The notes beneath the pieces were generated by a model that was not told the DNA's origin, searched no databases, and saw only the letters and a program-made list of their open reading frames with translations. Of a stretch of DNA of 55,024 nt, positions 8,898 through 55,024 are shown in pieces. The stretch lies in IMG/VR virus record IMGVR_UViG_3300031920_000406, positions 1-55,024 of that record, one strand, 5' to 3'. The DNA comes from a virus. Numbering within the stretch: position 1 is the stretch's first letter; the number at the start of each line of letters is the position of its first letter. The translations under genes were made by a program, and so were the position numbers.

Positions 8898-9175
8898 AAC
8901 TATGTAAATGCGGTTGTGGCCGCGAGGTGCCGAGTCACAGACAATATGTTGCTGAATGTCAGACACGGGTAAATCGTGAAAGAATGGTTGTCTACAATAG
9001 GGAGCACCGCAACTGTGCCCTCGACTTACGACATGCGCGCACTGTAAAATTAAGAACAATGAAAAAATGTAACAACATTCTCCACGCGCTTGACGTTACG
9101 GCAGCAGAAATATCCGCGCAGGTGGAAAAAATACGATTAAAACACGGGGTGCCGTATAACTTTATTCAAATTTAA
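8882..9175 (+). CDS. Small Cys-cluster protein
   Basis: 97 residues, RBS CCAGGAGG, overlapping the ASCH gene by 16 bases. LCKCGCGREV at the N-terminus is a short Cys cluster often found at the front of phage HNH or zinc proteins, but no HNH motif follows. The rest is helical and basic. Confidence 0.55.
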   Translation: MGEKIKLCKCGCGREVPSHRQYVAECQTRVNRERMVVYNREHRNCALDLRHARTVKLRTMKKCNNILHALDVTAAEISAQVEKIRLKHGVPYNFIQI

Positions 9176-9195
9176 TAGGGCAAAGAAATGAAAAT

Positions 9196-9504
9196 ATGAA
9201 TGAAAAAAAATTCAAAAAAGGTATAGAGACGGTACTCACCGCTATTGCGGATGGGTTTGATAGAAAATTGTATTCTCAAACAAAAGCACAACTCGAAGAA
9301 CATTGGTTTTTTGAATATGATAGCAATTTATCACCACAGAAAAATATATATCAGTTTTGGGATTTGTTAACATTGTATGAAAACTCTTGCCGGCGATGGG
9401 AGGAACACCACAATGGTACAATTTGTGTTGTAGAAAGAGTTAGAGATAAATATTTAATGCCAAAAATCAATCTTTTTTATGTTGAGCTTTTGAAAAATGA
9501 CTAG
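9196..9504 (+). CDS. Hypothetical protein, 102 residues
   Basis: Helical, charged protein, weak RBS. No family recognised. Its end overlaps the next small gene by 8 bases. Confidence 0.5.
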   Translation: MNEKKFKKGIETVLTAIADGFDRKLYSQTKAQLEEHWFFEYDSNLSPQKNIYQFWDLLTLYENSCRRWEEHHNGTICVVERVRDKYLMPKINLFYVELLKND

Positions 9505-9670
9505 AAAAGAGAAAATGAAATACCAGGTCAGAGACGAACAATGCTATACAAAAAAATGCTTCACACCGTTTTCTGGAAACGGCTGGAAAATATGTCGATT
9601 ATATGAAATGGGGCAATGTCCTGATGCTGTTCCAGATGCCCCGCTTAACAGAACGGAGAAAAAGAAATGA
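9497..9670 (+). CDS. Small Cys-containing protein, 57 residues
   Basis: Fits tightly between neighbours: the ATG lies 8 bases inside the previous gene and the TGA overlaps the lipase start as ATGA. Sequence includes DEQCYTKKCFTPF, WKICRLYEMGQCPDAVPDAP. Four Cys may bind zinc. The tight packing argues that it is real. Confidence 0.55.
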   Translation: MTRKEKMKYQVRDEQCYTKKCFTPFSGNGWKICRLYEMGQCPDAVPDAPLNRTEKKK

Positions 9671-10431
9671 ACTGGTTACCGGAAATGTGGACGTACTCTG
9701 AATACGTTTCGCACAGATTTATGAGTCGCTATCAAAAAGGAAAATATTACGAGCCTTTGATTGATAGAAATGCATTTTTATACGTTCCATTTGTAAACGA
9801 CAAGGATTTTGCGTTTTTGGCAGAAACGTCATACAAAATTATTATTGCATTTTCAGGTCCCAAGAATCTCCCTGCAATGATAAACAATTTTGATGCATAC
9901 CCTCTCGGTGAAGGAATGATACTTGACGGATTCTACCGTTCATGGAAATATTACAAGGATGCCTTTGACCGATTCTTCCGAGACAATTTTGATGGCCATG
10001 GGAAGGATTTTTCCGGTATCAAGAAAGAGTTGCTGATTACCGGCCATAGTCGCGGTGGCGCCCTGGCTAGTTTGTGTGCCAGGCACTTCTCAAAAAACCG
10101 GCAGAAACCGAACACTTGTTACACGTTTGGTGCACCGCCTCAGGGAACTCAAGAATATGTTGATCAATATAACAAACTTACCGTCCTTAATATTCGAGGT
10201 GTCAACGGCTCTGACATTGTGCCAACAATGTTGTTGCCGCGGAGCCTAGGGTTTCTTCATCAAAATCATTTGCACCATTTTCCACAGCCGCGTTGGCACC
10301 GGTGGTTTCATAAAATCCGTGACCACTATTATTCAAATTACACAAAAGCGATACTAAAATATTGCCGTAAGGTAGGAGACCGTGACGGCGTTGCACAAAT
10401 GAAGCGTGTTCTGAAAAGAGCACGACCGTAA
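9667..10431 (+). CDS. Lipase class 3-like alpha/beta hydrolase
   Basis: 254 residues. The nucleophile elbow GHSRGG puts the catalytic Ser at residue 128; GSDIVPTM supplies an Asp near 183 and a His follows (RDHYYSNY near 219 is the best candidate). The family hydrolyses ester bonds of lipids. No signal peptide is visible, so it should act inside the cell or need another route out. It is far larger than its neighbours in an operon of tiny proteins. Membrane attack, lysis aid or an effector role are all inference. Confidence 0.8.
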   Translation: MNWLPEMWTYSEYVSHRFMSRYQKGKYYEPLIDRNAFLYVPFVNDKDFAFLAETSYKIIIAFSGPKNLPAMINNFDAYPLGEGMILDGFYRSWKYYKDAFDRFFRDNFDGHGKDFSGIKKELLITGHSRGGALASLCARHFSKNRQKPNTCYTFGAPPQGTQEYVDQYNKLTVLNIRGVNGSDIVPTMLLPRSLGFLHQNHLHHFPQPRWHRWFHKIRDHYYSNYTKAILKYCRKVGDRDGVAQMKRVLKRARP

Positions 10432-10450
10432 TCAATAAAGGAGGAGCAAG

Positions 10451-10675
10451 ATGAAAGAGGGAGATTTGATAGTAGTTTGGCGGGACAACGGAGAAGCGTT
10501 GCTGACAAAAGCTCGTTCAGATCAATTTTTAGATGTAAACAAAAACGATGTGATTTTTGCGATAGGTGTGAGAGGCTGTTATCATTGCACTCATGTTAGA
10601 CCGGTTACCATCCATAAGTGCGTTTTCTCAGAAGATCTTAAGGGTGAAATTTCGTTGTCAAAACGAATATTATAG
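10451..10675 (+). CDS. Small hypothetical protein
   Basis: 74 residues, RBS AAAGGAGG. Opens with MKEGDLIVVWRDNGEALLTKARSD, a small beta-barrel pattern; GCYHCTHV carries a Cys/His pair. Unknown function. Confidence 0.55.
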   Translation: MKEGDLIVVWRDNGEALLTKARSDQFLDVNKNDVIFAIGVRGCYHCTHVRPVTIHKCVFSEDLKGEISLSKRIL

Positions 10676-10678
10676 GGA

Positions 10679-11065
10679 ATGCAAATGAGTTGTAAATGTC
10701 AAAGTTGCGGTGATCTTTATAAGGTCGATTTAATAATTCCTGATAAGTTATGGGAAATTATTAAACCAAAGGGTAAAGTTAAAGGAGCGGGGTTGCTTTG
10801 CGGTAAATGTATTATTAAATTTCTTGAATTAATCAATGAATACCGGGCACTCCATTTAGTGGGAGCTGACAACTCCCCATCTCCCAACAAGTCAAGTTTG
10901 AGATTGCCGGACGTCAAGCAATGTATTGAACATGCCATGTCTAAATTAGGCGATGATTATTTCAACGTAACGCCGTCAATGTTAATCGGGTGTGTACGTA
11001 GATTTATAGCAAGTGAACTGGAGGGGAAAAATGGGATACAGAAACATAAAACCGGTATTAACTAA
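10679..11065 (+). CDS. Zinc-ribbon protein with helical tail
   Basis: 128 residues. CKCQSCG near the start and CGKC near residue 40 form a zinc ribbon. VGADNSPSPN follows, encoded by GCTGACAAC as at 3711, then a separate helical C-terminal part. The SDN/ADN joint again separates two modules. Confidence 0.55.
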   Translation: MQMSCKCQSCGDLYKVDLIIPDKLWEIIKPKGKVKGAGLLCGKCIIKFLELINEYRALHLVGADNSPSPNKSSLRLPDVKQCIEHAMSKLGDDYFNVTPSMLIGCVRRFIASELEGKNGIQKHKTGIN

Positions 11066-11321
11066 TATTTGGGAATTATCTGGTTGCTGTGGCCTGTTCA
11101 CCGGTGACACGTCCCTTAACAATGGGTACGGGTGTAAATCACGCTCAAAAGAAAAAGACGAGGTCGGATGCTGTTATATGTGGGACTGTCCGCTCGCTTA
11201 CTCTGCTAGCCTGGAGGACTTGAAAAAACACGACACTTATCTATACAAAGAATATCTGGATAGTGGAGACGATCCAGAACAGAGTGATTGGATGATACAA
11301 TATAGAGAGGTACAGAAATGA
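11031..11321 (+). CDS. Cys-rich hypothetical protein
   Basis: 96 residues from the ATG after CTGGAGGGG, overlapping the previous gene by 35 bases. Cys at the front (GCCGLF) and middle (GCCYMWDCP) may hold a metal. Acidic C-terminus. Unknown function. Confidence 0.55.
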   Translation: MGYRNIKPVLTNIWELSGCCGLFTGDTSLNNGYGCKSRSKEKDEVGCCYMWDCPLAYSASLEDLKKHDTYLYKEYLDSGDDPEQSDWMIQYREVQK

Positions 11322-11602
11322 TAGAACCTATTCCTGTTCAAATGACTGCAACACCGACCGACTCTGTCTTGATCAACAAACTTAACCAGGTTATTTCTGA
11401 CGTTAACAGATTTTTACCCATTCACAGGAGAAAGGAAAAAATGTCAACAGAAGTCAAAATTCAACGAAAAAAAACCTGGATAGTAAATCATCGGGATAAC
11501 AACCACACTCGTTATGTGTGTTTCGATTGTTGTATTAATTATGTTTCAAAAAATATGACGGTGTGCGTTAAATGTGGGAAGGAAACCACAAAAATTTACT
11601 AG
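11318..11602 (+). CDS. Small protein with C-terminal zinc ribbon
   Basis: 94 residues, ATGA overlap with the previous gene. CFDCC and CVKCGK near residues 68-90 form a zinc ribbon. An internal in-frame ATG (11441) with AGGAGAAAGG upstream could start a 53-residue version. Confidence 0.55.
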   Translation: MIEPIPVQMTATPTDSVLINKLNQVISDVNRFLPIHRRKEKMSTEVKIQRKKTWIVNHRDNNHTRYVCFDCCINYVSKNMTVCVKCGKETTKIY

Positions 11603-11627
11603 ACCGAGTTTAGGCCGGGGTTTAAAA

Positions 11628-11795
11628 ATGTATAAAATGATCAATCCAGTTCTATATTTCTTAATGTTCGCGGCGGTCGGTTGCCTGTTCTGGCTGCTCG
11701 TTCACACATTTTCGTTAGAATATAACCAGGAGGTGCCATATGGATGCATCAGATGCATCAACAATGTTGGAACGTACGAAAGCGCGGTTGATTGA
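11628..11795 (+). CDS. Small single-span membrane protein
   Basis: 55 residues. One hydrophobic segment near residues 4-27. Overlaps the next gene by 56 bases in another frame, so the C-terminal part is less certain. Confidence 0.4.
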   Translation: MYKMINPVLYFLMFAAVGCLFWLLVHTFSLEYNQEVPYGCIRCINNVGTYESAVD

Positions 11796-11952
11796 GGCCG
11801 CGGAAAAAGAGTATGGGAAAATTGAACCGTGCAATATAGACCCGTTTACAATTTTCGATGGTGTTCTCTATTTTTGGTTTAATTTGCCAGACAATTCAAC
11901 ACATTTCACACACACCCATCTAATTCACGAGAATACAGAATCGGAAAAATAG
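11740..11952 (+). CDS. Hypothetical protein, paralogue of 19376-19576
   Basis: 70 residues, RBS AGGAGG. Shares with the minus-strand gene at 19376 the pattern [KR]LIE-A--KYGKI-P near residues 16-30, then C, a V-[FY]-WFN block and ST-HxxL. This internal homology supports both genes. Function unknown. Confidence 0.65.
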   Translation: MDASDASTMLERTKARLIEAAEKEYGKIEPCNIDPFTIFDGVLYFWFNLPDNSTHFTHTHLIHENTESEK

Positions 11953-12009
11953 TTCACCATATGTCTAGTTGGTGGAAAAATTAATTATTCATAACAGGAG
12001 CGCAAAAAA

Positions 12010-12330
12010 ATGAAAGCAGTGATCGAATTGATTAATGGTGTAGAGGGGGGGTGCATTTGTATCTGTGCAAGTGGTGATGATGGCGGAAGGCGTGTTGCAG
12101 GCCCAAAGCCGTGGGGTGGAGGGGTTGTTGTTAAAAAGTGGATTACAACAGTTGAAGACATTGAAGATGCGCTCCAAAGCATTCGGAACATTAATTCATC
12201 CACCAACAACGAAAGGACTTCAATTTGTCCTGAATGCCATTCGGATGATTCAGATGTTGAATGTGGACTTTCCTTTTGCAATGCTTGTGGTAATAGTTGG
12301 AGGCACGGACAAACTAAATCCGTTTCGTGA
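12010..12330 (+). CDS. Protein with C-terminal zinc ribbon coded by the spacer
   Basis: 106 residues, RBS AGGAG. The Gly-rich first 60 residues (GGCICICASGDDGGRR) are joined by SSTNNERTS to a zinc ribbon (CPECH...CNACG). The joint is encoded by CATCCACCAACAACGAAAGG (12196-12215), a right-arm-like sequence, so the ribbon lies in the inter-cassette spacer ending at GTTG 12333. Confidence 0.6.
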   Translation: MKAVIELINGVEGGCICICASGDDGGRRVAGPKPWGGGVVVKKWITTVEDIEDALQSIRNINSSTNNERTSICPECHSDDSDVECGLSFCNACGNSWRHGQTKSVS

Positions 12331-12332
12331 AC

Positions 12333-12612
12333 GTTGTAAGAAATAAATCAAATTTTTATTATTATAGTTTGCTCATTAACAGAAAGGGAAATGAAATGAA
12401 AAATGTGCCAAAGTATATGATTTATGATGGTAGGTATCGGTTTGACGAAGATCGAGCGATTGTAATGGATATGGCCGATACTCTTTCAGAAGCAAACGCG
12501 GCCGCCAAAGATCAAGGGGATGCCGTAGTAGTTGATTCTAAAACAGGTGCAATTGTATACGGGTAGCCCATTCGCAAAAGAACTGGTTGTAATTTGATTT
12601 ACATCTTACAAC
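12333..12612 (+). repeat. Cassette unit J, 22-bp inverted-repeat arms
   Basis: Arms 12333-12354 and 12591-12612 pair at 20 of 22 positions; the only mismatches are the conserved AA/CA pair. Specific part TAAATCAAATT / AATTTGATTTA. Confidence 0.9.
12396..12566 (+). CDS. Small hypothetical protein of cassette J
   Basis: 56 residues, start at the second ATG after AAAGGGAA. MIYDGRYRFDEDRAIVMDMADTLSEANAAAKDQGDAVVVDSKTGAIVYG looks like a small alpha/beta fold seen in phage early genes. No function known. Confidence 0.6.
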   Translation: MKNVPKYMIYDGRYRFDEDRAIVMDMADTLSEANAAAKDQGDAVVVDSKTGAIVYG

Positions 12613-12658
12613 ACGCAAAGGTAAAAATTGATGGAGCCAACTTCTACCATTTGCCAAC
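12613..12658 (+). repeat. attC-like inter-cassette hairpin, copy 2
   Basis: Nearly identical to 4754-4800, 8 kb away. GCAAAGGT pairs with ACCATTTGC: relative to copy 1 one C-G pair has become T-A on both sides, a compensatory change. The right end reads CCAAC instead of CGGAAC. Confidence 0.75.
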
Positions 12659-12818
12659 GTTGTGACAAAATAATTTTTTCTTTGGAGTTATAATGTTTTC
12701 TAAATTTGAATTAGCAGTAATCGAAGTTGATGTTTCTCATGTTTTAAAGTTGGTTTCTCTTGATGACCAGCAAAGGAAAACACGGGAGAATATTGTAAAA
12801 AAAATTACTTCGCACAAC
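12659..12818 (+). repeat. Cassette unit K, inverted-repeat arms
   Basis: Left arm starts GTTGTGACAAAATAATTTTT at 12659; the right arm ending in CGCACAAC at 12818 pairs with it apart from a one-base offset (TAATTTTTT / AAAAAATTA). The right arm is inside the coding sequence. Confidence 0.65.
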
Positions 12819-12938
12819 AAACAAAGTGGAGAAATAGAATGTACTAACTGTGGAATTCTTTTGCCACCAATGGAGCCAGGAGAAGGTGACCCGTCTAAAA
12901 GTGGCTATTTGTGCCGCACGTGTTTTGGTTTGGATTAA
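12693..12938 (+). CDS. Protein with spacer-coded zinc ribbon
   Basis: 81 residues, RBS TTGGAG. A helical half (to about 40) ends in TSHNKQS, encoded by the right cassette arm; then CTNCG and CRTCF form a zinc ribbon in the spacer. Same architecture as 12010-12330. Confidence 0.6.
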   Translation: MFSKFELAVIEVDVSHVLKLVSLDDQQRKTRENIVKKITSHNKQSGEIECTNCGILLPPMEPGEGDPSKSGYLCRTCFGLD

Positions 12939-13014
12939 TAGACATTTTACTTCTCACGTTTATCAACTGTTGTACGAAATACAGGCTTACTATAAGAGCC
13001 GTTTTAAAAGCAGA

Positions 13015-13113
13015 ATGAAATGGAAAAAAATTAACAAAACACTGGCTGAAATAGCAAAAAAATACTGCTCATTGGTATACGAAATGGCAAAATCGCACAA
13101 TGTGGAAATCTGA
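13015..13113 (+). CDS. Short basic peptide
   Basis: 32 codons, helical and Lys-rich. Starts 47 bases after the core GTTGTACGAAATA at 12968. RBS weak. Uncertain. Confidence 0.3.
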   Translation: MKWKKINKTLAEIAKKYCSLVYEMAKSHNVEI

Positions 13114-13130
13114 ACCCTGGAAGGGATGTT

Positions 13131-13427
13131 ATGAGTTTACGAAAAAAACAATCCAAATTTGCACAGATGTTGATATTATTGTTTGCCTATATTGTTCAGG
13201 GCGGCTATGAGATCACACTTGGAGACGCTGCAAGAATTGATAGGCGAGGACACTCGAAAAACAGTAAACACTATGTGAGGCTGGCAATTGACCTCAATCT
13301 GTTTAAAGACGGAAAATATCTACGAGATACGGCAGATCACGAAAAAATAGGGATCTTCTGGGAAGCTATCGGGGGAACATGGGGCGGTCGATTTACAAAT
13401 CCTGACGGCAACCATTATCAATTGTAA
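13131..13427 (+). CDS. M15-type L-Ala-D-Glu/D-Ala-D-Ala peptidase (endolysin-like)
   Basis: 98 residues. LGDAARIDRRGHSKNSKHYVRLAIDLNLF and WGGRF...DGNHYQL match the zinc peptidases of phage lysis modules; His47, Asp54 and His95 are the metal ligands expected for the family. It is shorter than usual because the segment between the front helix and SKNSKH is reduced. Cuts peptide bridges of the cell wall. No signal peptide, so export would need a holin. RBS GGAAGGG. Confidence 0.8.
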   Translation: MSLRKKQSKFAQMLILLFAYIVQGGYEITLGDAARIDRRGHSKNSKHYVRLAIDLNLFKDGKYLRDTADHEKIGIFWEAIGGTWGGRFTNPDGNHYQL

Positions 13428-13589
13428 GTTGGTTTTATTTTTTCCAATAAATGTGTTGAGCCTGGCAATCTAGGTGATTTTATCTGTGATGGCGAATATG
13501 ATGATTTCGAGTGTAGGCATTTTTATATAGCTTTGGAATCAAAATTACATTCACACAACCCACAACAAACCTCGGGCGGGTGCGTAAAA

Positions 13590-13673
13590 ATGAATCTAAC
13601 CAATTACATAGTTTGGATTCTCCGAATCATCACCCTTGTTTTAATTCTTAATATAATTTTTTTCTTTTTGTAG
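13590..13673 (+). CDS. Short transmembrane peptide behind the lysin
   Basis: 27 codons, almost entirely hydrophobic (YIVWILRIITLVLILNIIFFF). The same frame is open from the stop of the lysin (13425-13427) onward, 81 codons in all with no stop. It could be a small holin or the remnant of a longer gene. Overlaps the end of the convergent ASCH gene. Confidence 0.35.
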   Translation: MNLTNYIVWILRIITLVLILNIIFFFL

Positions 13674-14216
13674 TAGCTCTCGCGCCGCTTTTCGTTCTGA
13701 CAATGTTTCTATCCATGTTTTCTTCGCGTTTCTGACTACGCCATGTAGTCCGTTCTTTAGCGCGATTTCTTCTAACGACATCAGTGCTTTCCAGTCGCCC
13801 TCATCGAATTGTGAAGGATTCATTTCTACGTGGAATATTGTTTTTCGTCCTGACCACACTATTGGTTTTTTGAAGCGTATTGCCGATTCATAACGGTGCC
13901 ACCATCGTCCAACCTGGCCCCAACCATCATCATTGACTAGATTGCACTCTACCATGATTACCGCTCCTACAAGCGCCCTTTTAGGGTATTCTATCGCACG
14001 TCCCATTCGTCCTATAACCTTTTGTGAAAGATATTGTTCCGCTTCTATTCTACCCTGCACATGTTCTAATGCACTTTTCCATTTTGTGTCCTCTCTTTGA
14101 CTAGCGTGAATTAATAATACTCCACGATAGTTTGATTTCCATGTCCGATTCTCTATTTTCTTTCTACCCCCGACCACGAACTCCGCCCAGGGTTGACGTA
14201 TTGATATTGCTACCAT
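13641..14216 (-). CDS. ASCH domain protein
   Basis: 191 residues. ISIRQPWAEFVVGGRKKIENRTWKSNYRG at the front, then LLIHAS and ALVGAVIMVEC, is a clear ASCH signature (PUA-like fold; binds RNA or modified bases, some act as deaminases or readers). It closes the leftward recombination operon. Precise role unknown. Confidence 0.8.
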   Translation of the reverse strand: MVAISIRQPWAEFVVGGRKKIENRTWKSNYRGVLLIHASQREDTKWKSALEHVQGRIEAEQYLSQKVIGRMGRAIEYPKRALVGAVIMVECNLVNDDGWGQVGRWWHRYESAIRFKKPIVWSGRKTIFHVEMNPSQFDEGDWKALMSLEEIALKNGLHGVVRNAKKTWIETLSERKAARELLQKEKNYIKN

Positions 14217-14357
14217 GTTATATTATCTTCTCTTTCTTATATGTTTGTAGAGAGAAATTTTTAAATTGTCTCTATACTCTTGTTGCTCATAACCCTAGAG
14301 ACTTTCTATTATAAGCAATTGCCTTTTTGTCCCTTTATTCGATTTCGTCCTTCTCAA

Positions 14358-14621
14358 TTATCTTAATCGCAGTTCATTTACCGATCTGTTATTGGCACAT
14401 ACTATATTTAGCCCTACAATACGCAATTTTCGACGCTCCACAGTTTCTTCTTTCCCAGTGTCCAAAAACTGCACTTGTACCCACTCTCCTTTCTTGTCTC
14501 CAACTATTTTACACGTACGTTTCTTTAGATTCTTCTCTTTCTTACTATTTCCCGTACAATATCGGTACAGACTCACTTTTATGATCCTTTCTACCTGAAC
14601 AATCCTTTGCACAGAGCACAT
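14358..14621 (-). CDS. Small basic protein, SH3-like
   Basis: 87 residues. KRTCKIVGDKKGEWVQVQFLDTGKEETVERRKLRIV reads as a small beta-barrel, as in nucleic-acid-binding proteins. RBS GAGAAAATG weak; the start may be a few codons away. About 140 bases before 14216 hold no gene I can see. Confidence 0.5.
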   Translation of the reverse strand: MCSVQRIVQVERIIKVSLYRYCTGNSKKEKNLKKRTCKIVGDKKGEWVQVQFLDTGKEETVERRKLRIVGLNIVCANNRSVNELRLR

Positions 14622-27764: not shown

Positions 27765-27937
27765 TTTTTTACCTTAACTCCCTTTTTTTCTTTTTTGAGT
27801 TCTTCACGGCTTTTATATCCATCACAGCTAACTTTCCGTACTCGTTTCCCACATTTCGGTTGCCCAGATTGACGGTAAGCGCAGCTGCATGGAAATGGGC
27901 AAATGAATTCTTTTGCATCACTTTCGCTTTTCATCAT
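27761..27937 (-). CDS. Cys-cluster basic protein
   Basis: 58 residues; the ATG overlaps the stop of the propeller gene (ATGA). CPFPCSCAYRQSGQPKCGKRVRKVSC gives five or six Cys, probably metal-binding; Lys-rich tail. Confidence 0.55.
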   Translation of the reverse strand: MMKSESDAKEFICPFPCSCAYRQSGQPKCGKRVRKVSCDGYKSREELKKEKKGVKVKK

Positions 27938-29424
27938 AGTCCCTTTGCTTGTACATTTACGAAGAATGGAATACCTTCCAGGATTTCCCCGCCTGCGAGT
28001 ACCGCGTATAACTTGAACCACCATTTACCCTTTATAGAATTCAACCCTACCGAGACATATCCCACCACCCCATCATCTGACACGTGCGAACCGGCAAGTG
28101 AACCACTCGCCCCATTTGGGTCAATGTAAAGAATTACAATAGAAGTTGCAGTAATCATCGATCGGCTCTGATCTTCAATAAGAATTACGTGGTAATTCTG
28201 ATCAATATCAATAATATCCGAAGGCCAGTACCGAGAATTGTTGGAAACCCTTTCCCCCAGCAATTCAATAACTTCAATATAATCTATTCTTGTAAAAATG
28301 TCCACGCCCACTGCATTGGTAGCTGTTAGCGAAACGGTGAAAAACCCAACGGAACTATAACGATGTGCTGGCGCAAATCCAGTACTGGACAATCCATTCC
28401 CAAAAGTCCATAAATATGTTGGTTTATCTAAATCATAAACTGTTTCGTTAGTGAATTGTACCACTAAAGGTCTAAATCCTGTCAAAGGAATCGCTGTGAA
28501 ATTAGCAGAAAGTAAATACTTTAGTCTATATAATTTCCCGCTAATAAATGTTCCACCGTACAAACGATCGTTATAAATTTCCAACGAGAAAACAACATAT
28601 TCCAACGGTAAATACCCACAAATTTGTTCCCACGCACTCCTTAAATCATTCAAGCGATACAAATAACCCCCATAAGACCCACTGCTTATACCAGTACATC
28701 CATACAAATCATTATCATATACTATTAAATCAAAAACATGCAATGCCTCTAATGTCTCACACACTTGTTCCCAAGCATTCCTTGCAAAATTTAATCTGAA
28801 CAATCTACCCCCTGGGCTGGTGCTACCATATAGCCGACCTTCAAAAACTGCCAGCGAGTTTATTAGTCCTTGTCCATTTAACTCTGCACACACTTGTTCC
28901 CAAGCATTCCTTGCAAAATTTAATCTGAACAATCTACCCCCTGGGCTGGTGCTACCATATAGCCGACCTTCAAAAACTGCCAGCGAGTTTATTAGTCCTT
29001 GTCCATTTAACTGTGCACATATCTGCTCCCACGCATTGCCTGCTAGATTTAATATGAATAATCTACCCCCAAATCCTGTTCCACAATATAAACGCCCCTC
29101 GAACACAATTAAACTCTTCATATGTAATTGACTGTTTAATATACCGCAAATCCGTTCCCACGAATTCCCTGCTAGGTTTAATCTGTACAAATCACCATTC
29201 TCCGTTCCACCATATAACCGATTTTCAAAAACAGTGAGAGACAATATCATACGTCTGTCCAAGAACTTTCCGCACACCTGTTCCCAAGCAGTTTCCGTCA
29301 GATTCATTCTAAATAATCTACCACCAGTTCCTGTTCCACCATATAGCCGACCTTCAAAAACAGCCAGCGAGTATATACGGGATTGCCCATTTAACAGAGT
29401 ACACACTTGCACCCAATTAGCCAT
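27934..29424 (-). CDS. Beta-propeller / PKD receptor-binding-type virion protein
   Basis: 496 residues. About seven to eight repeats of roughly 43 residues (SLAVFEGRLYGGTGTGGRLF, W-EQVC) fill residues 1-310 and read as a beta-propeller. A PKD domain follows (YLWTFGNGLSSTGFAPAHRY near 325-375). The last 100 residues (KWWFKLYAVLAGGEILEGIP) are shared with the next gene. Late position and sticky-domain architecture suggest a fibre or receptor-binding protein; no signal peptide. Confidence 0.65.
   Translation of the reverse strand: MANWVQVCTLLNGQSRIYSLAVFEGRLYGGTGTGGRLFRMNLTETAWEQVCGKFLDRRMILSLTVFENRLYGGTENGDLYRLNLAGNSWERICGILNSQLHMKSLIVFEGRLYCGTGFGGRLFILNLAGNAWEQICAQLNGQGLINSLAVFEGRLYGSTSPGGRLFRLNFARNAWEQVCAELNGQGLINSLAVFEGRLYGSTSPGGRLFRLNFARNAWEQVCETLEALHVFDLIVYDNDLYGCTGISSGSYGGYLYRLNDLRSAWEQICGYLPLEYVVFSLEIYNDRLYGGTFISGKLYRLKYLLSANFTAIPLTGFRPLVVQFTNETVYDLDKPTYLWTFGNGLSSTGFAPAHRYSSVGFFTVSLTATNAVGVDIFTRIDYIEVIELLGERVSNNSRYWPSDIIDIDQNYHVILIEDQSRSMITATSIVILYIDPNGASGSLAGSHVSDDGVVGYVSVGLNSIKGKWWFKLYAVLAGGEILEGIPFFVNVQAKGL
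28761..29018 (-). repeat. Near-identical 129-bp tandem duplication in the propeller gene
   Basis: Copies 28761-28889 and 28890-29018 are almost identical, encoding two equal 43-residue repeats (NARNAWEQVCAELNGQ type). Other repeats of the gene are much more diverged, so this duplication is recent. Confidence 0.9.
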
Positions 29425-30450: not shown

Positions 30451-31887
30451 TTATACCTTTTCTTTATGAGTTAGTCCTGAAGTTAGGTTTTCAAGTCTCT
30501 CGATTCCTTCTAAAATTTCATCCGCTTTATCGTCCCGTTTTTCTTCCTTCCCATCTTTTTCTCTTCGATTCCAGATTCGTTCTGGGTCTGCGGCTTTATC
30601 ATACCCTAATTCTCGTGCTCCATCATCTGGTGTGATAAAACCGTCTAATACCTTGTCTTCCACATTACCAATTTCGAATCGACCCGCCACTGCCATGTCT
30701 TTTCGAGCTGGATCTCGCACCGGCTCGAAATTTTGGTGTGTTTTTACAACCGATATTCCTTTTAGAGACAGCTCAGTGTTCCGGATCCATTCCGCAAAAC
30801 GTTTCCCGATTTTTTGGATTGTTTCCGTTTGTGACATTATCAGATCGAATTGTGACCGTACCCAGTTTTTTGTCGTTTGTGTTGATTTCCCTACGATCCA
30901 CGGGAATAGATGAAATGCTGCTACGATTTCTTCATCAAAGATCGAACGATTTAATTTCCACACAAAACCGGTTGCTCCAGGTTGTCCTCCTGCGATTCCG
31001 ATTTCCAGATCGTCCCACGAATAAAAGTTATCATCCGGAGCGATATCCGAGAATCTATCTATATATGCGTCGAAATATTCGTTTGCACGATTAATATAAT
31101 CTGCGTCGTCTTCATCCTCCATTTTCCCCGGTTGTTTGATTTTGATATGTAACCGCGGTACCCCTGCATTTGATGATGATAGTGCCATATCATGCAGCAT
31201 ATTGTCAGCCATTTTCATTAGAGGCCACGCTGATTCAATCATTGCAGCCCCGTATGGGTTTTCCCAATCCATATCGAGGGCATAAAAGAAGAATGTTTTT
31301 TCGTTTGCTCGGAAAAAGTCTCTTCCATTTACCGATATATATGGGGTTCGTTTGTTTTTAGTGAATCTAACACAGAATGGATCAATGATTTCAAATCTTT
31401 CAATTCCTTTCCCCTCTCTATCCACGATCATATTACCCGCGAAGCGTCCGTATGTGAATATGTAATGGAAGAATTGAGCTAATAACAGATCCATTCCGCC
31501 TCCTTTTACGAATTTGAAGGGGCTGATCCGTTCATCAAGATTATTGATCACAAGTTGCGCAATTTCCCGTTGTTTTTCTTCTCCCCCCACTAATTTCACT
31601 ACTTGCCGCGTTGAGCATAGATTTTTCCATGTCCACACCGCCGCAGACGCCATAGGATAATATCGACACACCGCCTGAAAGAACCACTTATACCCTCCTG
31701 ATAGATCTGTCATTACGGTTTCACCCAGATTCAGCCTTGTTGTGTTGTTTTCCGCCCACGAGTTAAAGGCCTTTTCTCCCATTTCTATTTTTGTTATTCC
31801 TTTGGCATTGTTAGATGTTTTGCTCATCCCTCGCAGCCTGGGTTCGATGTATGCTTTCTTTTTCTTTTTATGTCCGAACAGCGCCAT
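30451..31887 (-). CDS. Portal protein
   Basis: 478 residues, RBS AAAGGAG, overlapping the terminase by 20 bases. Helical, with YKWFFQAVCRYYPMASAAVWTWKNLC early, the central stem region, and FHLFPWIVGKSTQTTKNWVRSQFDLIMSQTETIQ, the portal helix pattern of HK97/SPP1-type phages. Forms the dodecameric vertex through which DNA enters. Acidic/basic coiled tail (ADEILEGIERLENL). Confidence 0.82.
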   Translation of the reverse strand: MALFGHKKKKKAYIEPRLRGMSKTSNNAKGITKIEMGEKAFNSWAENNTTRLNLGETVMTDLSGGYKWFFQAVCRYYPMASAAVWTWKNLCSTRQVVKLVGGEEKQREIAQLVINNLDERISPFKFVKGGGMDLLLAQFFHYIFTYGRFAGNMIVDREGKGIERFEIIDPFCVRFTKNKRTPYISVNGRDFFRANEKTFFFYALDMDWENPYGAAMIESAWPLMKMADNMLHDMALSSSNAGVPRLHIKIKQPGKMEDEDDADYINRANEYFDAYIDRFSDIAPDDNFYSWDDLEIGIAGGQPGATGFVWKLNRSIFDEEIVAAFHLFPWIVGKSTQTTKNWVRSQFDLIMSQTETIQKIGKRFAEWIRNTELSLKGISVVKTHQNFEPVRDPARKDMAVAGRFEIGNVEDKVLDGFITPDDGARELGYDKAADPERIWNRREKDGKEEKRDDKADEILEGIERLENLTSGLTHKEKV

Positions 31888-41766: not shown

Positions 41767-42591
41767 TCACTTCAGTATCTTCGTATTACAGTTTTCGTAT
41801 CCCAGTTTCTTGCGCAGCCCCTCAGTTGCCGTACTGATGAATTCTATTTCCCAGGCGCTTAAATTCTTGTGACTTTCCCCATCTCTTTCGCCTGTAAACT
41901 CTGAAAACTTACTTGCGTTCGGTATTGTCAATCCTTCTTTGTCAAGCTCGCAATGTTTTAGTATTTGACTCCAAATCCTCTTTGCGTCCTTTTCATCCGG
42001 ATATGTTTTTCCTTTAATCAAGTCTTCATATCTTATCCACATAAAACTGTCTATTTCTTTGCTCTCCATCCAAAGAACTGTATTTACATTAATCCACTGT
42101 GCTGTTGCTGTGGGTACGTCCAGGTTTAGAGCAACATCTCCCATTAGAGGTTGACGTCGAATAATTCCTTCTACTACAGACCATGGGTTTCGTACCATTC
42201 CCATAATGATTGCATCCGGCCAGAGTAGTTTAATCCACGTTAACCGCAGTGATAGTTTCGGATCTTTTGTCAATAGGCGTGAACCATTTTTCCAGTGTTT
42301 TTTTCGATGTTTTCGAAACCAACCGATTAGACTTTCCACCTCCTCTTTACCCATCGGTCCCCCGCCATACGCTTTTAATATGCTTTCTTTATGAGCATGA
42401 TTTGTATTGAAGCACGGGAATAATGCGAATAGCCGATTTAGCCGTCCATCCAGGTTCGGTTGCACTCCTAGCCAGTGAAGCTCCTTATCCATGCCTCCTA
42501 CATCTTGATGTTCTCGTAATGGGAGGAATAGGCACTTCGTGCCTGAGTTCGTGCATCCCACGATGAAGATTGGACTTTTTGTTCCCAGCAT
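41767..42591 (-). CDS. Sulfotransferase
   Basis: 274 residues. 5'-phosphosulfate loop VGCTNSGTK at 11-19 and the 3'-phosphate motif MVRNPWSVVEG near 132-142, followed by FMWIRYEDL, are typical of PAPS-dependent sulfotransferases. Transfers sulfate to a sugar or other acceptor. Grouped with a glycosyltransferase and a methyltransferase, so glycan decoration of the particle or host is likely. Confidence 0.8.
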   Translation of the reverse strand: MLGTKSPIFIVGCTNSGTKCLFLPLREHQDVGGMDKELHWLGVQPNLDGRLNRLFALFPCFNTNHAHKESILKAYGGGPMGKEEVESLIGWFRKHRKKHWKNGSRLLTKDPKLSLRLTWIKLLWPDAIIMGMVRNPWSVVEGIIRRQPLMGDVALNLDVPTATAQWINVNTVLWMESKEIDSFMWIRYEDLIKGKTYPDEKDAKRIWSQILKHCELDKEGLTIPNASKFSEFTGERDGESHKNLSAWEIEFISTATEGLRKKLGYENCNTKILK

Positions 42592-45923: not shown

Positions 45924-47036
45924 TTATGTCCAAACAATTCGACGTACTGCACCATCCGCGATGATGCAAAAACGGCTTGCTTCTGATATTACCGCCTCTT
46001 CGAATTTTCTGGAGATGATTTTGTCCGCCTCTACACTCAGCGTTTCGTTTATTACTTCTTTGACGGCGAATCTATCATCTAATGTCACAATGACTGTTCC
46101 AACTGGAGTCGCGCCCGGTGTTGCATTAACCTGCTTCACCTTTGCACCCAGTGGCGTTACCATTTTTCCCGTACGCTGATATTCCCAACCAGCCAACGGA
46201 TCCTGGAACTGTGCCATTGCAAGGATAGTTCTCACGCTTTGACCCGGTGCTAATATCCGGCTCATGCTGAATGGCGCTTCGTATGCTGTTTCGTTCTCAA
46301 TCAGATCCGTATATGCCAGAGTTGCCGCAACCCCTGCAAAAGTATTTGTTGCCGCGCCTACCGTTCCATCTCCCGTGATTCCCAAATCGTAGATATCTTG
46401 AAGCTTGTCTGCTGAGAATTGCGCTCCAATCAAGCGCAGAAATACCGCAAAATCAGACCATCCGTAATCTTTAATTACTGAATATGCCGATTCAATTATG
46501 CGTCCATTATCATTCACTACGATATCTTTTTCACGCCGCACGATCGATACTACCGGGAAGGCTCCCCCTTTACCTGACGCCGCTCGCCCGCCCAGTGATT
46601 TATCACGTCGCGTCCGCAAACTCGCCAAATTCATGTCCGGGATGTATAATGGGTGATAGTGCGAGCCTTTTGACGCGATGCTTACTGCAATACAATCTTT
46701 GCAGCTGAACTTTTCCTTTACATCCATTCCTGCTTTGACTTCACGCAGCACTAACTCCGGCATTAGATATTCAGCAGTATTTGCTAACTTTTCTATGCTG
46801 AATTGATTATTTCCTTTCAGCTCGATCTCTTTTACCGCCAAATGGCGCGTAAATGCATCTGTTGGCGTAACAGCATTACCGTCTGTGTCACGCGGCGTTG
46901 GATCAAGTTCCTCCAAACGTTCACTCAGCGAAACACGCGCCCCCTGCAAATCCTTGTATAGTTTCAATCCATCTTTTTGATACTTATCGAATTCGCTGGC
47001 GATCTCTCTTGATTTTTCCAGATCTATAAGTGGCAT
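45924..47036 (-). CDS. Major capsid protein, HK97-fold type
   Basis: 370 residues from the ATG after GGAAGG. The long N-terminal helix region (EIASEFDKYQKDGLKLYKDL), central P-domain and the C-terminal DRFAVKEVINETLSVEADKIISRKFEEAVISEASRFCIIADGAVRRI fit phage capsid proteins of this fold. Assigned by order and pattern, not by a diagnostic motif. Confidence 0.7.
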   Translation of the reverse strand: MPLIDLEKSREIASEFDKYQKDGLKLYKDLQGARVSLSERLEELDPTPRDTDGNAVTPTDAFTRHLAVKEIELKGNNQFSIEKLANTAEYLMPELVLREVKAGMDVKEKFSCKDCIAVSIASKGSHYHPLYIPDMNLASLRTRRDKSLGGRAASGKGGAFPVVSIVRREKDIVVNDNGRIIESAYSVIKDYGWSDFAVFLRLIGAQFSADKLQDIYDLGITGDGTVGAATNTFAGVAATLAYTDLIENETAYEAPFSMSRILAPGQSVRTILAMAQFQDPLAGWEYQRTGKMVTPLGAKVKQVNATPGATPVGTVIVTLDDRFAVKEVINETLSVEADKIISRKFEEAVISEASRFCIIADGAVRRIVWT

Positions 47037-47072
47037 ATTTACCTTCCTGTCAATAGTTACACACACACATTG

Positions 47073-49531: not shown

Positions 49532-52500
49532 ATGAACGCTTTCTATCTTGATGTGCAACTTAAATCTCAAAACTCATCCCCCGATCCTGCCATTACAACT
49601 GATGAAGATGTCCGAATTATTAATTCCCTACGACGCAACGCTCCACTTAAAAAACTTAACTCTGATCAAATTAATACCCGCTCTATTATTATTATGGGAG
49701 AAGAACCCACTTCTAAACTCTCTATCCATCCACAACGACTCATTAATAATAAACAGATCAATACCCTCGCCGATATTGCTAAAAAATTACCCGGCGCACC
49801 CATGCTTGTAGGACATCGACAGGATAAAACACCATGGGGCCGTACATTTAAAGCACAAGTAATTGATAAAACACCAGGTTACTCCGGAGCAGTTGTCAAA
49901 GAAGCTTACTTCTTTCTCAATGACGATGAAGGTAACGCTATCGCTCGAAAAATCGATGCAGGCATATGGGCAGAAGGCTCTATCTCTTATTGGTTTCAAG
50001 AAGCACGATGCTCTATTTGCCATACACCAATGGCCTCTATGTCTTTTCTCGGCATTAACGCTAAAATAGCACGATGTAACCATATTCTTGGCAAAAAAGA
50101 CCAAGATACTGGACAAATATGCTACTGGTATCCCTACAATATCGTAAAAATCGGCGAAACATCATATGTATTCGCCGGCGCTTATTCCAAAACACGATCC
50201 TTTCTCGATACTAACAACGCCGATTATCTAAACGAGCTCTATTCCCCTGACCAAATTACCGCCGCCACTGAACTCGAATCACAACTTCTCGACGCTGGCC
50301 TCGATATTAAAAACATCCCACCCCAAATTGATGTCACACCATCACTCGATACAATTCATTCTAACACACCTCCACCATCATTAACACTTGTCGTTTCCAC
50401 TCCTACAAAAGGACCTATCAATGATACACCTACCCAAAACACACAACAACCCCCCTCACCCGATTCAACACCCAATCCCCCAATCACACATCAACAAACA
50501 CTCACCACAGAAAAAACAAAAAACAACCCACCCATCGAAGGCGAAGCTACCGACCCCCCAATCACTTCCAATGATTCATCCGATGATACTCTCCAACAAC
50601 ATACAACCCTTCCCGACCCCAACTCAAATGCTACAACTCTATCCCCACCTTCACCCGGAGAACAACTCGACCGAGGCGCCGGTAAAGGCAAAGGCGGAAA
50701 ACCACAAGGAGACGGAGGCGCATCCAAATGTGTATGCCCTAAATGCGGATACGAAACACCACACATAAAAGGCACACCATGTACTGAATCGAAATGCCCC
50801 AAATGTCATACCACTCTCCAAGGTAAAAACATGGATAATATTCAACCCACAACACAACCAAATTCTCAAATACCACCCCCTATTCCCACCAATAATTCAC
50901 CTAAAACCACCTTAACCGCTACTAATCTGGACAATCTACCTAGCAATAATCATACCGACCAAACTGCTACTAATCCACCCAAACCCACAATACCAATCGA
51001 AAAAAATTCGGCAAATCACCATATAATCGAAAAAAATTCGATTTCCCTAAATCCCAATAAACCCACTATTGACAATGTGGAAGACCCACTATCAGCCGCT
51101 CTTGCTTTTATGGACCGCGTCTCAGACTCCTTGACCCCTGAAGATCTATCAGATCTTACCTCTATTTTTAATACACCAGATTTTGATATTGATGAGCGCG
51201 AAACGTTTCTTAGAACAGCTTTAAAATCTGCATCTGTTGAAATTCTTAACGAGGCTCTTGATCTCCTTGATCGTATTTCTGATTCTTCATTGTCTCCACC
51301 TTTACTTATTTTTCAATGTGTCGAATGTTCCACCCATTTTGATGTTCGTCCTGACGCTTTTTGTCCTCATTGTGGCGCACAGGTAATACCCTTGGAAGAT
51401 TACCGTGTTGTACTCTTTAACCCTGTCGGACCTATTAAGCCTACAAAATCAGGTATTTGCAATAATGAGTTTTTTAAAAAAGAAGACCTTGTCAATTTGC
51501 CCACTGCGGTTTACTTTGTTGAGCCTAAGTACGACGGTGTTTGGATGGAACTTCATCGTTTAGGTGACAAGGTACGTTTTTACACTGCCGAAGGCAACGA
51601 ATATTCTGAAAAGTTTCCTGCACTTATGGCGGAAGCCCTGAAGATTAAAGCTACTTCCTATATTATCGCCGGTGAACTTACTCGATGGCATAATCGCCGC
51701 AGGCTTGGTCATACCGATGTTGCAGCTTATTTACACACCAAAGCAGAAACTTATGATGATAAAGACTTTAAATATAAGCCTTTTGATCTTATGTTGCTAT
51801 TAGGCCGCGCTGTTACCGATCAGCCTCTTGATGCACGCCGTCGCAAGCTCGATAGTACTTTTAAATGGGGTAAACAAATTCATCCAACCGCACATCGTGT
51901 TGTTAAACATGTATATGCTGATTCTGCGATTCTTTCTACCATTAACGACCGAGCTACTCGCGAGGGTGTTATGATTAAAGATATTCATAGTCTCTACTCA
52001 CGTCGCGATCAAAAGTCTCTTTACAAGTGGAAGCAGCAATCTGAACTGGATGTTCGTGTCAAGTCTGTTATGGTCAACACTGGTGGTGGTTATATTTATA
52101 CATGTGAGGTAGGTCGAGGTACTAATGTTCAAGTTATTGGAGCTACTTATACCACTACCATTAAAGCTTTAATAGGCAATATTCTTCAGGTTTCAGTTGA
52201 TCATGTTCGTTATGACAAGCCCAAAAATAACTACTCCTGGTTTGCTCCGAAGGTCGTAGCTTTACGGGCTGACAAAAAACTACCCGATCCTCTTTCCGCT
52301 CTCCGTGCCCTTGCCCTTGTAAAGGGTAGTGAACCTAAGAGTAGACACATTATTACACTTACCGAGGTTTTGCCTCGTTTAAAGCGAGCTGCTCTTGATC
52401 TTGAACTCTATCTTATCGGAAGCCTTGTGGAAGAGGGACTTACTACTCACGATATTGACATTCTTAGTCGTGTTCCTCTTGGTGAAAACGACGTTCGTGC

Positions 52501-53221
52501 TTTGACTGACGCTCTTGGGATGGATCTTGCCTTTTATCTTGATATTACAATAGATCAAGATGGCCCCGCTGGTCCCAGCATTCCTTTGATTACTGATATG
52601 AAGAACAATGATGCTATGTGGAAGTATTCCAATATGTTCGTCCTCCAGGAACACGGATGGGGGAAGAAGGTCCATTATGATCTTAGATTTGGAGCTCCAC
52701 GGACAAAACGCATGTGGGGATGGACTTGTTTTTCAAAACCCTCATTCACTGATGGAGGTGCTAAGACACGTTGTCAGGAGAAAAAATATCATGACCCTAA
52801 ATGGATGGATTTTGACAAAAAGACTATTCCTCCTGGGCAGCCTGGAAACCCCACTAAAAATCTAAATGCTTGGATCACTAAAATTGATACTGGAACATAC
52901 GAGTACATTTGCCGCAAGCCTAATTTTCTTGAGCTCGTTTTCCATGGCACTTTGATGGATGGTCGCTATCTTTGGCGTCACATTGAAGTCAAACACCAGT
53001 CACAAAAGACTATTGATGCTCACCATATTCCTGGCGATGAAGTTGATACTAAGACAGACAAAATCTGGGTTATGTGGAAACCTAAGGACCAGGAGCCAGG
53101 TAAGGCTATTCATAAGCTTGCTTATAAGTTTATTGACGATTGTTTCATGTTCTGGGAAACCGACGAAGTTGATACTATTCTTGAACATCTTGAAAATATT
53201 GTTTTCGACTCTACTACTTAG
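49532..53221 (+). CDS. Prohead protease fused to a LigD-like ligase / NTase / phosphoesterase
   Basis: 1229 residues, RBS AAAGGAT. Residues 1-230: prohead-protease-like, with His95 (GHRQDKTPWGR), Ser150/Ser152 (GSIS) and a Cys/His cluster (CSIC, CNH, C). About 235-590: Pro/Thr/Asn-rich disorder with a zinc ribbon near 399-427 (CPKCGYETPH...CPKC). Near 595-615: second ribbon (CVEC...CPHC). 620-935: ATP-dependent DNA ligase with Lys666 in EPKYDG, motif IV EGVMIKD (811-817) and motif V YKWK, then an OB fold. Near 963-976: a Pol-beta-type nucleotidyltransferase signature (GS...DID). 1034-1160: LigD 3'-phosphoesterase with His1041, His1048-Tyr-Asp1050-Leu-Arg1052 and His1087. Only the protease part is usual in a head operon. 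Confidence 0.8.
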   Translation: MNAFYLDVQLKSQNSSPDPAITTDEDVRIINSLRRNAPLKKLNSDQINTRSIIIMGEEPTSKLSIHPQRLINNKQINTLADIAKKLPGAPMLVGHRQDKTPWGRTFKAQVIDKTPGYSGAVVKEAYFFLNDDEGNAIARKIDAGIWAEGSISYWFQEARCSICHTPMASMSFLGINAKIARCNHILGKKDQDTGQICYWYPYNIVKIGETSYVFAGAYSKTRSFLDTNNADYLNELYSPDQITAATELESQLLDAGLDIKNIPPQIDVTPSLDTIHSNTPPPSLTLVVSTPTKGPINDTPTQNTQQPPSPDSTPNPPITHQQTLTTEKTKNNPPIEGEATDPPITSNDSSDDTLQQHTTLPDPNSNATTLSPPSPGEQLDRGAGKGKGGKPQGDGGASKCVCPKCGYETPHIKGTPCTESKCPKCHTTLQGKNMDNIQPTTQPNSQIPPPIPTNNSPKTTLTATNLDNLPSNNHTDQTATNPPKPTIPIEKNSANHHIIEKNSISLNPNKPTIDNVEDPLSAALAFMDRVSDSLTPEDLSDLTSIFNTPDFDIDERETFLRTALKSASVEILNEALDLLDRISDSSLSPPLLIFQCVECSTHFDVRPDAFCPHCGAQVIPLEDYRVVLFNPVGPIKPTKSGICNNEFFKKEDLVNLPTAVYFVEPKYDGVWMELHRLGDKVRFYTAEGNEYSEKFPALMAEALKIKATSYIIAGELTRWHNRRRLGHTDVAAYLHTKAETYDDKDFKYKPFDLMLLLGRAVTDQPLDARRRKLDSTFKWGKQIHPTAHRVVKHVYADSAILSTINDRATREGVMIKDIHSLYSRRDQKSLYKWKQQSELDVRVKSVMVNTGGGYIYTCEVGRGTNVQVIGATYTTTIKALIGNILQVSVDHVRYDKPKNNYSWFAPKVVALRADKKLPDPLSALRALALVKGSEPKSRHIITLTEVLPRLKRAALDLELYLIGSLVEEGLTTHDIDILSRVPLGENDVRALTDALGMDLAFYLDITIDQDGPAGPSIPLITDMKNNDAMWKYSNMFVLQEHGWGKKVHYDLRFGAPRTKRMWGWTCFSKPSFTDGGAKTRCQEKKYHDPKWMDFDKKTIPPGQPGNPTKNLNAWITKIDTGTYEYICRKPNFLELVFHGTLMDGRYLWRHIEVKHQSQKTIDAHHIPGDEVDTKTDKIWVMWKPKDQEPGKAIHKLAYKFIDDCFMFWETDEVDTILEHLENIVFDSTT

Positions 53222-53241
53222 TCGCGGTTTTTTTTACTCCA

Positions 53242-53271
53242 GGGGGGAGGGTTGCTTTTCCCCCTTTTTTT
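53242..53271 (+). terminator. Rho-independent terminator after the fusion gene
   Basis: GGGGGA (53243-53248) and TCCCCC (53259-53264), then seven T. Ends transcription of 49532-53221. Confidence 0.85.
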
Positions 53272-54648: not shown

Positions 54649-54670
54649 CGAAGTTAACGTATTCTTTCAA

Positions 54671-55024
54671 CTCAGAAACCTCAGGGTTTCGCGAGTCTTT
54701 ACACCCAGAAACCTCAGGGTTTCGCGAGTCTTTACACTCAGAAACCTCAGGGTTTCGCGAGTCTTTACACTCAGAAACCTCAGGGTTTCGCGAGTCTTTA
54801 CACCCAGAAACCTCAGGGTTTCGCGAGTCTTTACACTCAGAAACCTCAGGGTTTCGCGAGTCTTTACACTCAGAAACCTCAGGGTTTCGCGAGTCTTTAC
54901 ACTCAGAAACCTCAGGGTTTCGCGAGTCTTTACACCCAGAAACCTCAGGGTTTCGCGAGTCTTTACACTCAGAAACCTCAGGGTTTCGCGAGTCTTTACA
55001 CTCAGAAACCTCAGGGTTTCGCGA
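54671..55024. repeat. 33-bp tandem repeat array at the right end
   Basis: Ten full units and a 24-base partial, starting at 54671 and every 33 bases. The only variation is the second base of each unit: copies 2, 5 and 9 begin CCC, all others CTC. Each unit holds the perfect hairpin GAAACC-TCAG-GGTTTC. The array runs to the last base, so its true length is unknown. Confidence 0.97.

Follow-up and report, generated by a model that had tools for sequence, protein, structure and literature searches.

In the LigD proteins of bacteria and archaea (POL-PE-LIG), a ligase is joined to a domain of the 3'-phosphoesterase (PE) type with a His-His-Asp triad and an Arg. A comparable combination is found in the methane-seep archaeal virus ANMV-1, whose 'ATP-dependent DNA ligase' (KP703175, 866 aa) holds a nucleotidyltransferase (NTase), a ligase and a PE domain, in that order, in one protein. 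It is annotated as a ligase only, and its gene immediately follows the portal gene. Prohead proteases of the HK97 gp4/Peptidase_S78 (U35)/Jenst gp24 type are marked by His, Ser and Glu-x-Ser-x-Val motifs, and gp24 of the Brevibacillus phage Jenst additionally has a Cys/His insertion. The Jenst-type proteases found in this analysis are encoded by separate genes (about 325-490 aa) with no ligase attached. Prohead proteases are usually viewed as scaffolding tools that are later lost.

The sequence analyzed here (the window) covers the 55,024 nucleotides of the IMG/VR virus record IMGVR_UViG_3300031920_000406 and contains one ORF in which features of these systems are combined. Like the ANMV-1 protein it holds an NTase, a ligase and a PE-like domain, and the two ligase regions are 27% identical over ~300 aa. 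The ANMV-1 protein, however, has a different domain order and no protease domain. The ligase-PE combination, with the His-His-Asp triad and the Arg, is shared with LigD, but an NTase of the MNT/Pol-beta type replaces the AEP/POL domain, Tyr88 has been substituted by Trp and a protease is attached. The ORF aligns with the S78-type proteases at the His, Ser and Glu-x-Ser-x-Val motifs, and it shares the Cys/His insertion with Jenst gp24. The polyvalent proteins (Iyer et al. 2017, PMC5512222) are described in that paper as multi-domain enzymes, proposed to be packaged and often encoded by portal-terminase phages; as in the window, peptidase and Pol-beta NTase domains are on the list. The ligase mentions found in the paper's main text concern RNA ligases and 2H domains, and no architecture of ligase, PE and NTase with a prohead protease was found there. 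Searches of the open-licence PMC literature yielded no description of a ligase/NTase/PE module combined with a prohead protease.

Architecture of the fusion ORF

The multi-domain architecture of the fusion ORF (Table 1) lies in a single frame, as had been claimed in the original prediction. The ORF starts with ATG, is preceded directly by the purine-rich AAAGGATG and runs uninterrupted for 1,229 codons to its sole stop, while each of the other five frames over 49532-53221 contains 30-132 stops. All previously cited residues (H95, S150/S152, K666, H1041, H1048, D1050, R1052 and H1087 among them) lie where they had been placed, and the two announced zinc ribbons are present as CxxC pairs at 402/422 and 596/611. 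In synonymous codon usage, the four segments correlate with the whole ORF at 0.77-0.89. The major head protein of the window and that of the Enterococcus phage fHoEfm07 belong to the same phrog_3922, and the fHoEfm07 gene adjoins its S78 protease gene; the protease type thus agrees with the capsid type. As the frame is open, the segments are alike in synonymous codon usage and the protease and head protein types agree, an origin of the ORF by frameshift or chimera is unsupported.

Table 1. Features in and around the fusion ORF (window coordinates; aa, residues of the fusion protein)
Feature	Position	Strand	Basis or remark
Portal protein (phrog_3753)	30451..31887	-	
Major head protein (phrog_3922)	45924..47066	-	
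Fusion ORF, 1,229 aa	49532..53221	+	N- to C-terminus: prohead protease (S78), linker with zinc ribbons, ligase (ATP-dependent), NTase, PE-like domain of LigD type
S78/HK97-type prohead protease domain (aa 22-233; H95/S150/E209)	49595..50230	+	tblastn to Jenst gp24, held-out HMM, hhalign
Cys/His cluster C160-x2-C163...C182-x-H184	50009..50083	+	inserted between Ser150 and Glu209 motifs; invariant columns in Jenst-type proteases
P/T/S/N-rich linker (aa 236-540), predicted disordered	50237..51151	+	composition; possible place of the releasing cleavage
Zinc ribbon 1 (CPKC...CPKC, aa 402-425)	50735..50806	+	
Zinc ribbon 2 (CVEC...CPHC, aa 596-614)	51317..51373	+	
Ligase adenylation domain (aa 655-834)	51494..52033	+	PF01068 E 3.5e-18, phrog_114 4e-20, motifs
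Ligase OB-fold segment (aa 838-925)	52043..52306	+	phrog_114 match reaches residue 921; family alignment
Pol-beta superfamily (MNT-like) NTase (aa 936-1027)	52337..52612	+	GS963-964...D974-I-D976; family alignment, profiles, AF2 of relative
LigD 3'-phosphoesterase-like domain (aa 1030-1160; H1041/H1048/D1050/R1052/H1087)	52619..53011	+	W1091 at Tyr88 position
Intrinsic-terminator-like hairpin	53241..53265	+	directly 3' of fusion-ORF stop; top-ranked such hairpin of region

Single-sequence scans returned no close relatives of the fusion protein. Its domains were compared with held-out profiles, which were built without the window sequence (E-values for 100,000 sequences). These profiles match the ligase (E 2.9e-38), the PE domain (E 1.1e-15) and the protease (E 3.4e-10); the NTase reaches E 0.15 and 14.3 bits, which makes it the weakest of the four domain assignments.

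By its profile matches, the N-terminal domain truly belongs to the S78 (HK97-type) prohead proteases. When the window protease family was compared by hhalign with a set consisting of HK97 gp4 and seven relatives, a match with P 7.8e-6 (probability 84%) was obtained, in which H95, S150 and E209 align to HK97 H65, S114 and E141, where the family conserves its His, Ser and Glu-x-Ser motifs. Ser150 thus occupies the conserved nucleophile position; Ser152, which had been proposed alongside it, does not. With tblastn, Jenst gp24 is matched at E 1e-5 (query aa 1-236) or 2e-4 (whole protein as query). Jenst gp24 is encoded two genes 5' of a protein annotated as capsid-related and itself matches the head maturation protease of fHoEfm07 (E 8e-7), a relative that passes the Pfam S78 (PF04586) cut-off with 23.7 vs 21 bits. 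The window protein itself gives no Pfam match to PF04586, and a PDB profile search with the protease set gave nothing significant. An AlphaFold2 model of the window N-terminus (12 sequences) reached a pLDDT of 37 and was discarded, so that the protease fold rests on sequence profiles. The earlier call of a protease-like head domain is borne out in that the first 230 residues do match a protease family. No second protease of the S78 or XkdF type was found among the window ORFs; as part of the joint explanation preferred below, the N-terminal domain may well be the phage's own prohead protease, the sole one identifiable in the contig. The linker that follows is probably disordered and may be the place where the protein is cleaved.

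Ligase, nucleotidyltransferase and phosphoesterase-like domains

The features of an ATP-dependent DNA ligase (KxDG, EGxMxK and KxK motifs, OB domain) are all present in the window. Motifs I, III, IIIa, IV and V are intact (K666 in KYDG, E715, FDL 751-753, EGVMIK 811-816 and KWK 832-834), in full agreement with the ligase and its Lys666 that had been predicted. In the ligase tree, the window forms a long, deep and poorly placed branch.

The window domain that follows resembles a minimal transferase of the MNT/Pol-beta superfamily. Its motif, GS-x9-DID, corresponds to the Pol-beta motif hG[GS]x(9-13)Dh[DE]h, which in that superfamily goes with a third acidic residue, and G-D-x-D is kept in all 18 rows of the family alignment. 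The third Asp is kept in most relatives, and the window shows no clear third acidic residue. When the family was compared with PDB profiles, Pol-beta superfamily entries dominated, each weakly (E 0.2-0.95); the alignment was too divergent for a scan of the sequence collection. An AF2 model of a relative (pLDDT 77) gave as its top Foldseek match the Sulfolobus nucleotidyltransferase 2rff (probability 0.87, E 0.08, not significant), with MNT antitoxins ranking next. Since the matches are non-significant and also include unrelated MIF folds, the model gives weak support only. Of the Pol-beta-type NTase originally proposed, the signature thus stands with family-level support and the type is a minimal, MNT-like one; polymerase activity is not among the supported parts.

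For the PE-like domain, matches were obtained to LigD_N (E 0.012), to the solved PE domain 3p4h (E 1.2e-4) and to 3p43. The LigD metal triad His42/His48/Asp50 corresponds to H1041/H1048/D1050 of the window, and triad and Arg are kept in nearly all relatives. Of the LigD phosphate site Arg52/His84/Tyr88, R1052 and H1087 are present in the window. The His84 equivalent is otherwise found only in contig L030, and the Tyr88 equivalent is Trp in every PE member (W1091 in the window). LigD from P. aeruginosa loses its activity when residues of the metal triad are replaced by alanine, and point mutants at His84 and Tyr88 are likewise inactive (PMC8656161). The LigD-type PE domain of the original prediction therefore holds for the 3p4h match, the triad, the Arg and the His and fails at the Tyr88 equivalent, and with this substitution PE activity of the window domain is plausible but uncertain.

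The altered phosphate site throughout the family, together with the unclear third Asp of the window NTase, is what one would expect if the ligase, NTase and PE domains were degenerate and served as scaffold or core filler. This is very improbable, as every ligase motif is intact, the His/His/Asp triad and the Arg persist in nearly all relatives and the G-D-x-D of the NTase is invariant.

No Pfam match to an AEP/POL domain was found in the fusion protein, and Ku was detected in 0 of 17 records (the window contig, probably incomplete, and 16 relatives), while the control search found it in B. subtilis. A Ku might still be supplied by the host or lie in a missing part of a contig. With no Ku found in these records and no POL domain, the system differs from LigD-NHEJ but may act in a similar way; the suggested likeness to LigD end joining thus does not extend to a canonical NHEJ system.

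Head genes and fused proteases across the family

The usual placement of an S78 protease gene between portal and major head protein genes, which is not strictly defining, is found for the Jenst and fHoEfm07 homologues. The fusion ORF is instead encoded on the other strand, at a distance of about 2.5 kb from the major head protein gene. It stands by itself on the + strand, with the head genes divergent from it, and lies outside the late operon. This lone divergent position, with the terminator-like hairpin, is the main contextual point against a simple late-operon logic. It would also suit an ordinary replication or recombination ligase, for which the fusion would only co-express two late proteins and the cleaved module would work in the cytoplasm with RecE/RecT. 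Homologues of RecE and RecT are indeed encoded in the window, and free ligases occur in many phages, e.g. Rhizobium phages. The wider family argues otherwise: a module adjacent to portal or major head protein genes in unrelated viruses, and repeatedly fused to differing protease families, is unexpected for a replication ligase, and we regard this alternative as somewhat unlikely.

By domain scans, NTase, ligase and PE occur together in about twenty distinct contigs (ANMV-1 and many IMG/VR contigs). The usual order is NTase-ligase-PE; the window has ligase-NTase-PE and L067 has NTase-PE-ligase, and in one further contig (L034/L064) NTase and PE were found with no ligase detected. A portal gene lies 5' of the module in ANMV-1, L010, L012, L029, L030, L035, L040, L043 and L047. 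On the 3' side, a major head protein follows in L010, L012, L029, L035, L040, L044, L045 and L047, and L041 and L042 have capsid genes there. In contigs other than the window, wherever the neighbors can be named, the module is flanked by portal genes on one side and protease/major capsid genes on the other. As it shuffles its domains yet stays with the head genes, it behaves as expected if location matters.

The statement in the original prediction that no such fusion was known has been overtaken, as independent protease-ligase fusions exist in other contigs. In five contigs (L012, L030, L040, L047 and L067) the module is fused to, or split between, prohead-protease proteins of the XkdF or Mu I-like type. 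XkdF (PF14550) forms the C-terminus of the module protein in L012 (7e-14), L030 (6e-23) and L040 (2.5e-17), and is likewise fused C-terminally in L067 (local XkdF profile). One L047 protein begins with a Mu I-like protease domain (PF10123, E 1.5e-4, below cut-off) and continues as NTase-MBL-ligase, while PE-XkdF is encoded by the gene that follows. With differing protease families at differing ends (S78 is N-terminal in the window), separate fusion events are favored, and the well-supported branches of the ligase tree require that the fused state changed at least twice.

Further DNA-acting domains accompany the module, namely a D12 MTase (L010, L029) and an MBL fold (L029, L047). The added D12 adenine methyltransferase would fit a virion-borne counter-defense protein of the polyvalent kind, which on injection would shield or repair incoming DNA cut by host nucleases, or whose NTase would modify host proteins or nucleotides; the polyvalent class as described includes peptidases and Pol-beta NTases and is often encoded by portal-terminase phages (PMC5512222). 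No classic antirestriction domain was found, however, and the ligase and PE indicate repair chemistry. This reading, which overlaps with capsid repair and differs from it mainly in timing and target, is judged unlikely.

Several side observations were made in the related contigs. In L009 the NTase-ligase-PE gene is in two frames about 2 kb apart (9059-10324 and 12445-14448) with two unrelated ORFs between them (10332-11027, 11278-12444), as if the ligase had been interrupted by an insertion; its near relatives L032, L035 and L036 are intact. L042 (1006-6351) has a LAGLIDADG-like domain (PF14528, E 2.4e-7) between ligase and PE of its NTase-ligase-PE protein, which may represent an intein or an inserted homing endonuclease. 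An additional, divergent PE-like domain recurs, in L010 (10837-11598), in L029 (9926-11230, together with a second ligase domain) and at the C-termini of L012, L030, L032, L035 and L036. Omnitrophota and Aenigmatarchaeota, suggested by named-MAG matches, were not accepted as hosts; the Aenigmatarchaeota contig appears to correspond to the viral contig L010. The 'DNA methyltransferase/prohead protease' of Rhizobium phage (MN988459.1 92326-92958; L056 3968-4600) was rejected as a precedent for an enzyme-protease fusion, because it is a 211-aa XkdF protease only; the name is an apparent misannotation recurring among Rhizobium phages.

In the window itself, tandem repeats of 30 bp and 33 bp lie at the ends (1-115 and 54663-55024). 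The contig probably ends there because of them, and the genome is therefore likely incomplete. A 129-bp direct repeat (28758-29070, 2.4 copies, 93% matches) lies inside ORF 27934-29424 (- strand), adjoining the portal gene cluster. A PAPS-reductase-like gene (1438-2592; phrog_424, 1.1e-39) and a sulfotransferase-like gene (41767-42591; PF13469, 2.3e-10) are also present.

A proposed role inside the capsid

Prohead proteases, as in HK97 and T4, reside in the procapsid core before packaging, and in T4 core proteins are cleaved, packaged and injected. The explanation we prefer, with about an even degree of belief, is that the fusion gene encodes a capsid-targeted DNA nick- or end-repair enzyme, which its protease carries along and a proteolytic cut releases. 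As a component of the procapsid core, the S78 domain would take the ligase-NTase-PE module at the C-terminus with it into the prohead. Activation of the protease would then lead to a cut in the long linker, by which the module would be freed inside the head, where it would remain with the packaged DNA. There it would seal nicks or heal and join ends, during packaging or just after injection. Possible roles are the sealing of nicks that stall packaging, the mending of damaged virion DNA and the joining of ends after injection. We infer capsid entry, linker cleavage, enzymatic activity and timing from the domains, homology, head-gene association and recurrent protease fusion. More tentatively, a widespread group of tailed viruses of bacteria and archaea might build a capsid DNA end-healing/ligation machine by way of at least two prohead protease families, Ku-free and analogous to NHEJ, by which packaged DNA would be repaired within the particle or have its ends joined on arrival.

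That the module is repeatedly fused or linked to proteases of several families suggests a coupling between DNA repair and capsid assembly. This bears on packaging motors that face nicked DNA, on the repair of virion DNA damage and on the circularization of linear genomes without cohesive ends or Ku. It also provides a functional entry point to ANMV-1-like archaeal viruses and to the 'hypothetical' or 'ligase' genes in head modules of viral metagenomes. As suggested by the head-gene linkage or fusion in about twenty other viruses, some tailed viruses may put a DNA-repair tool inside their particles.
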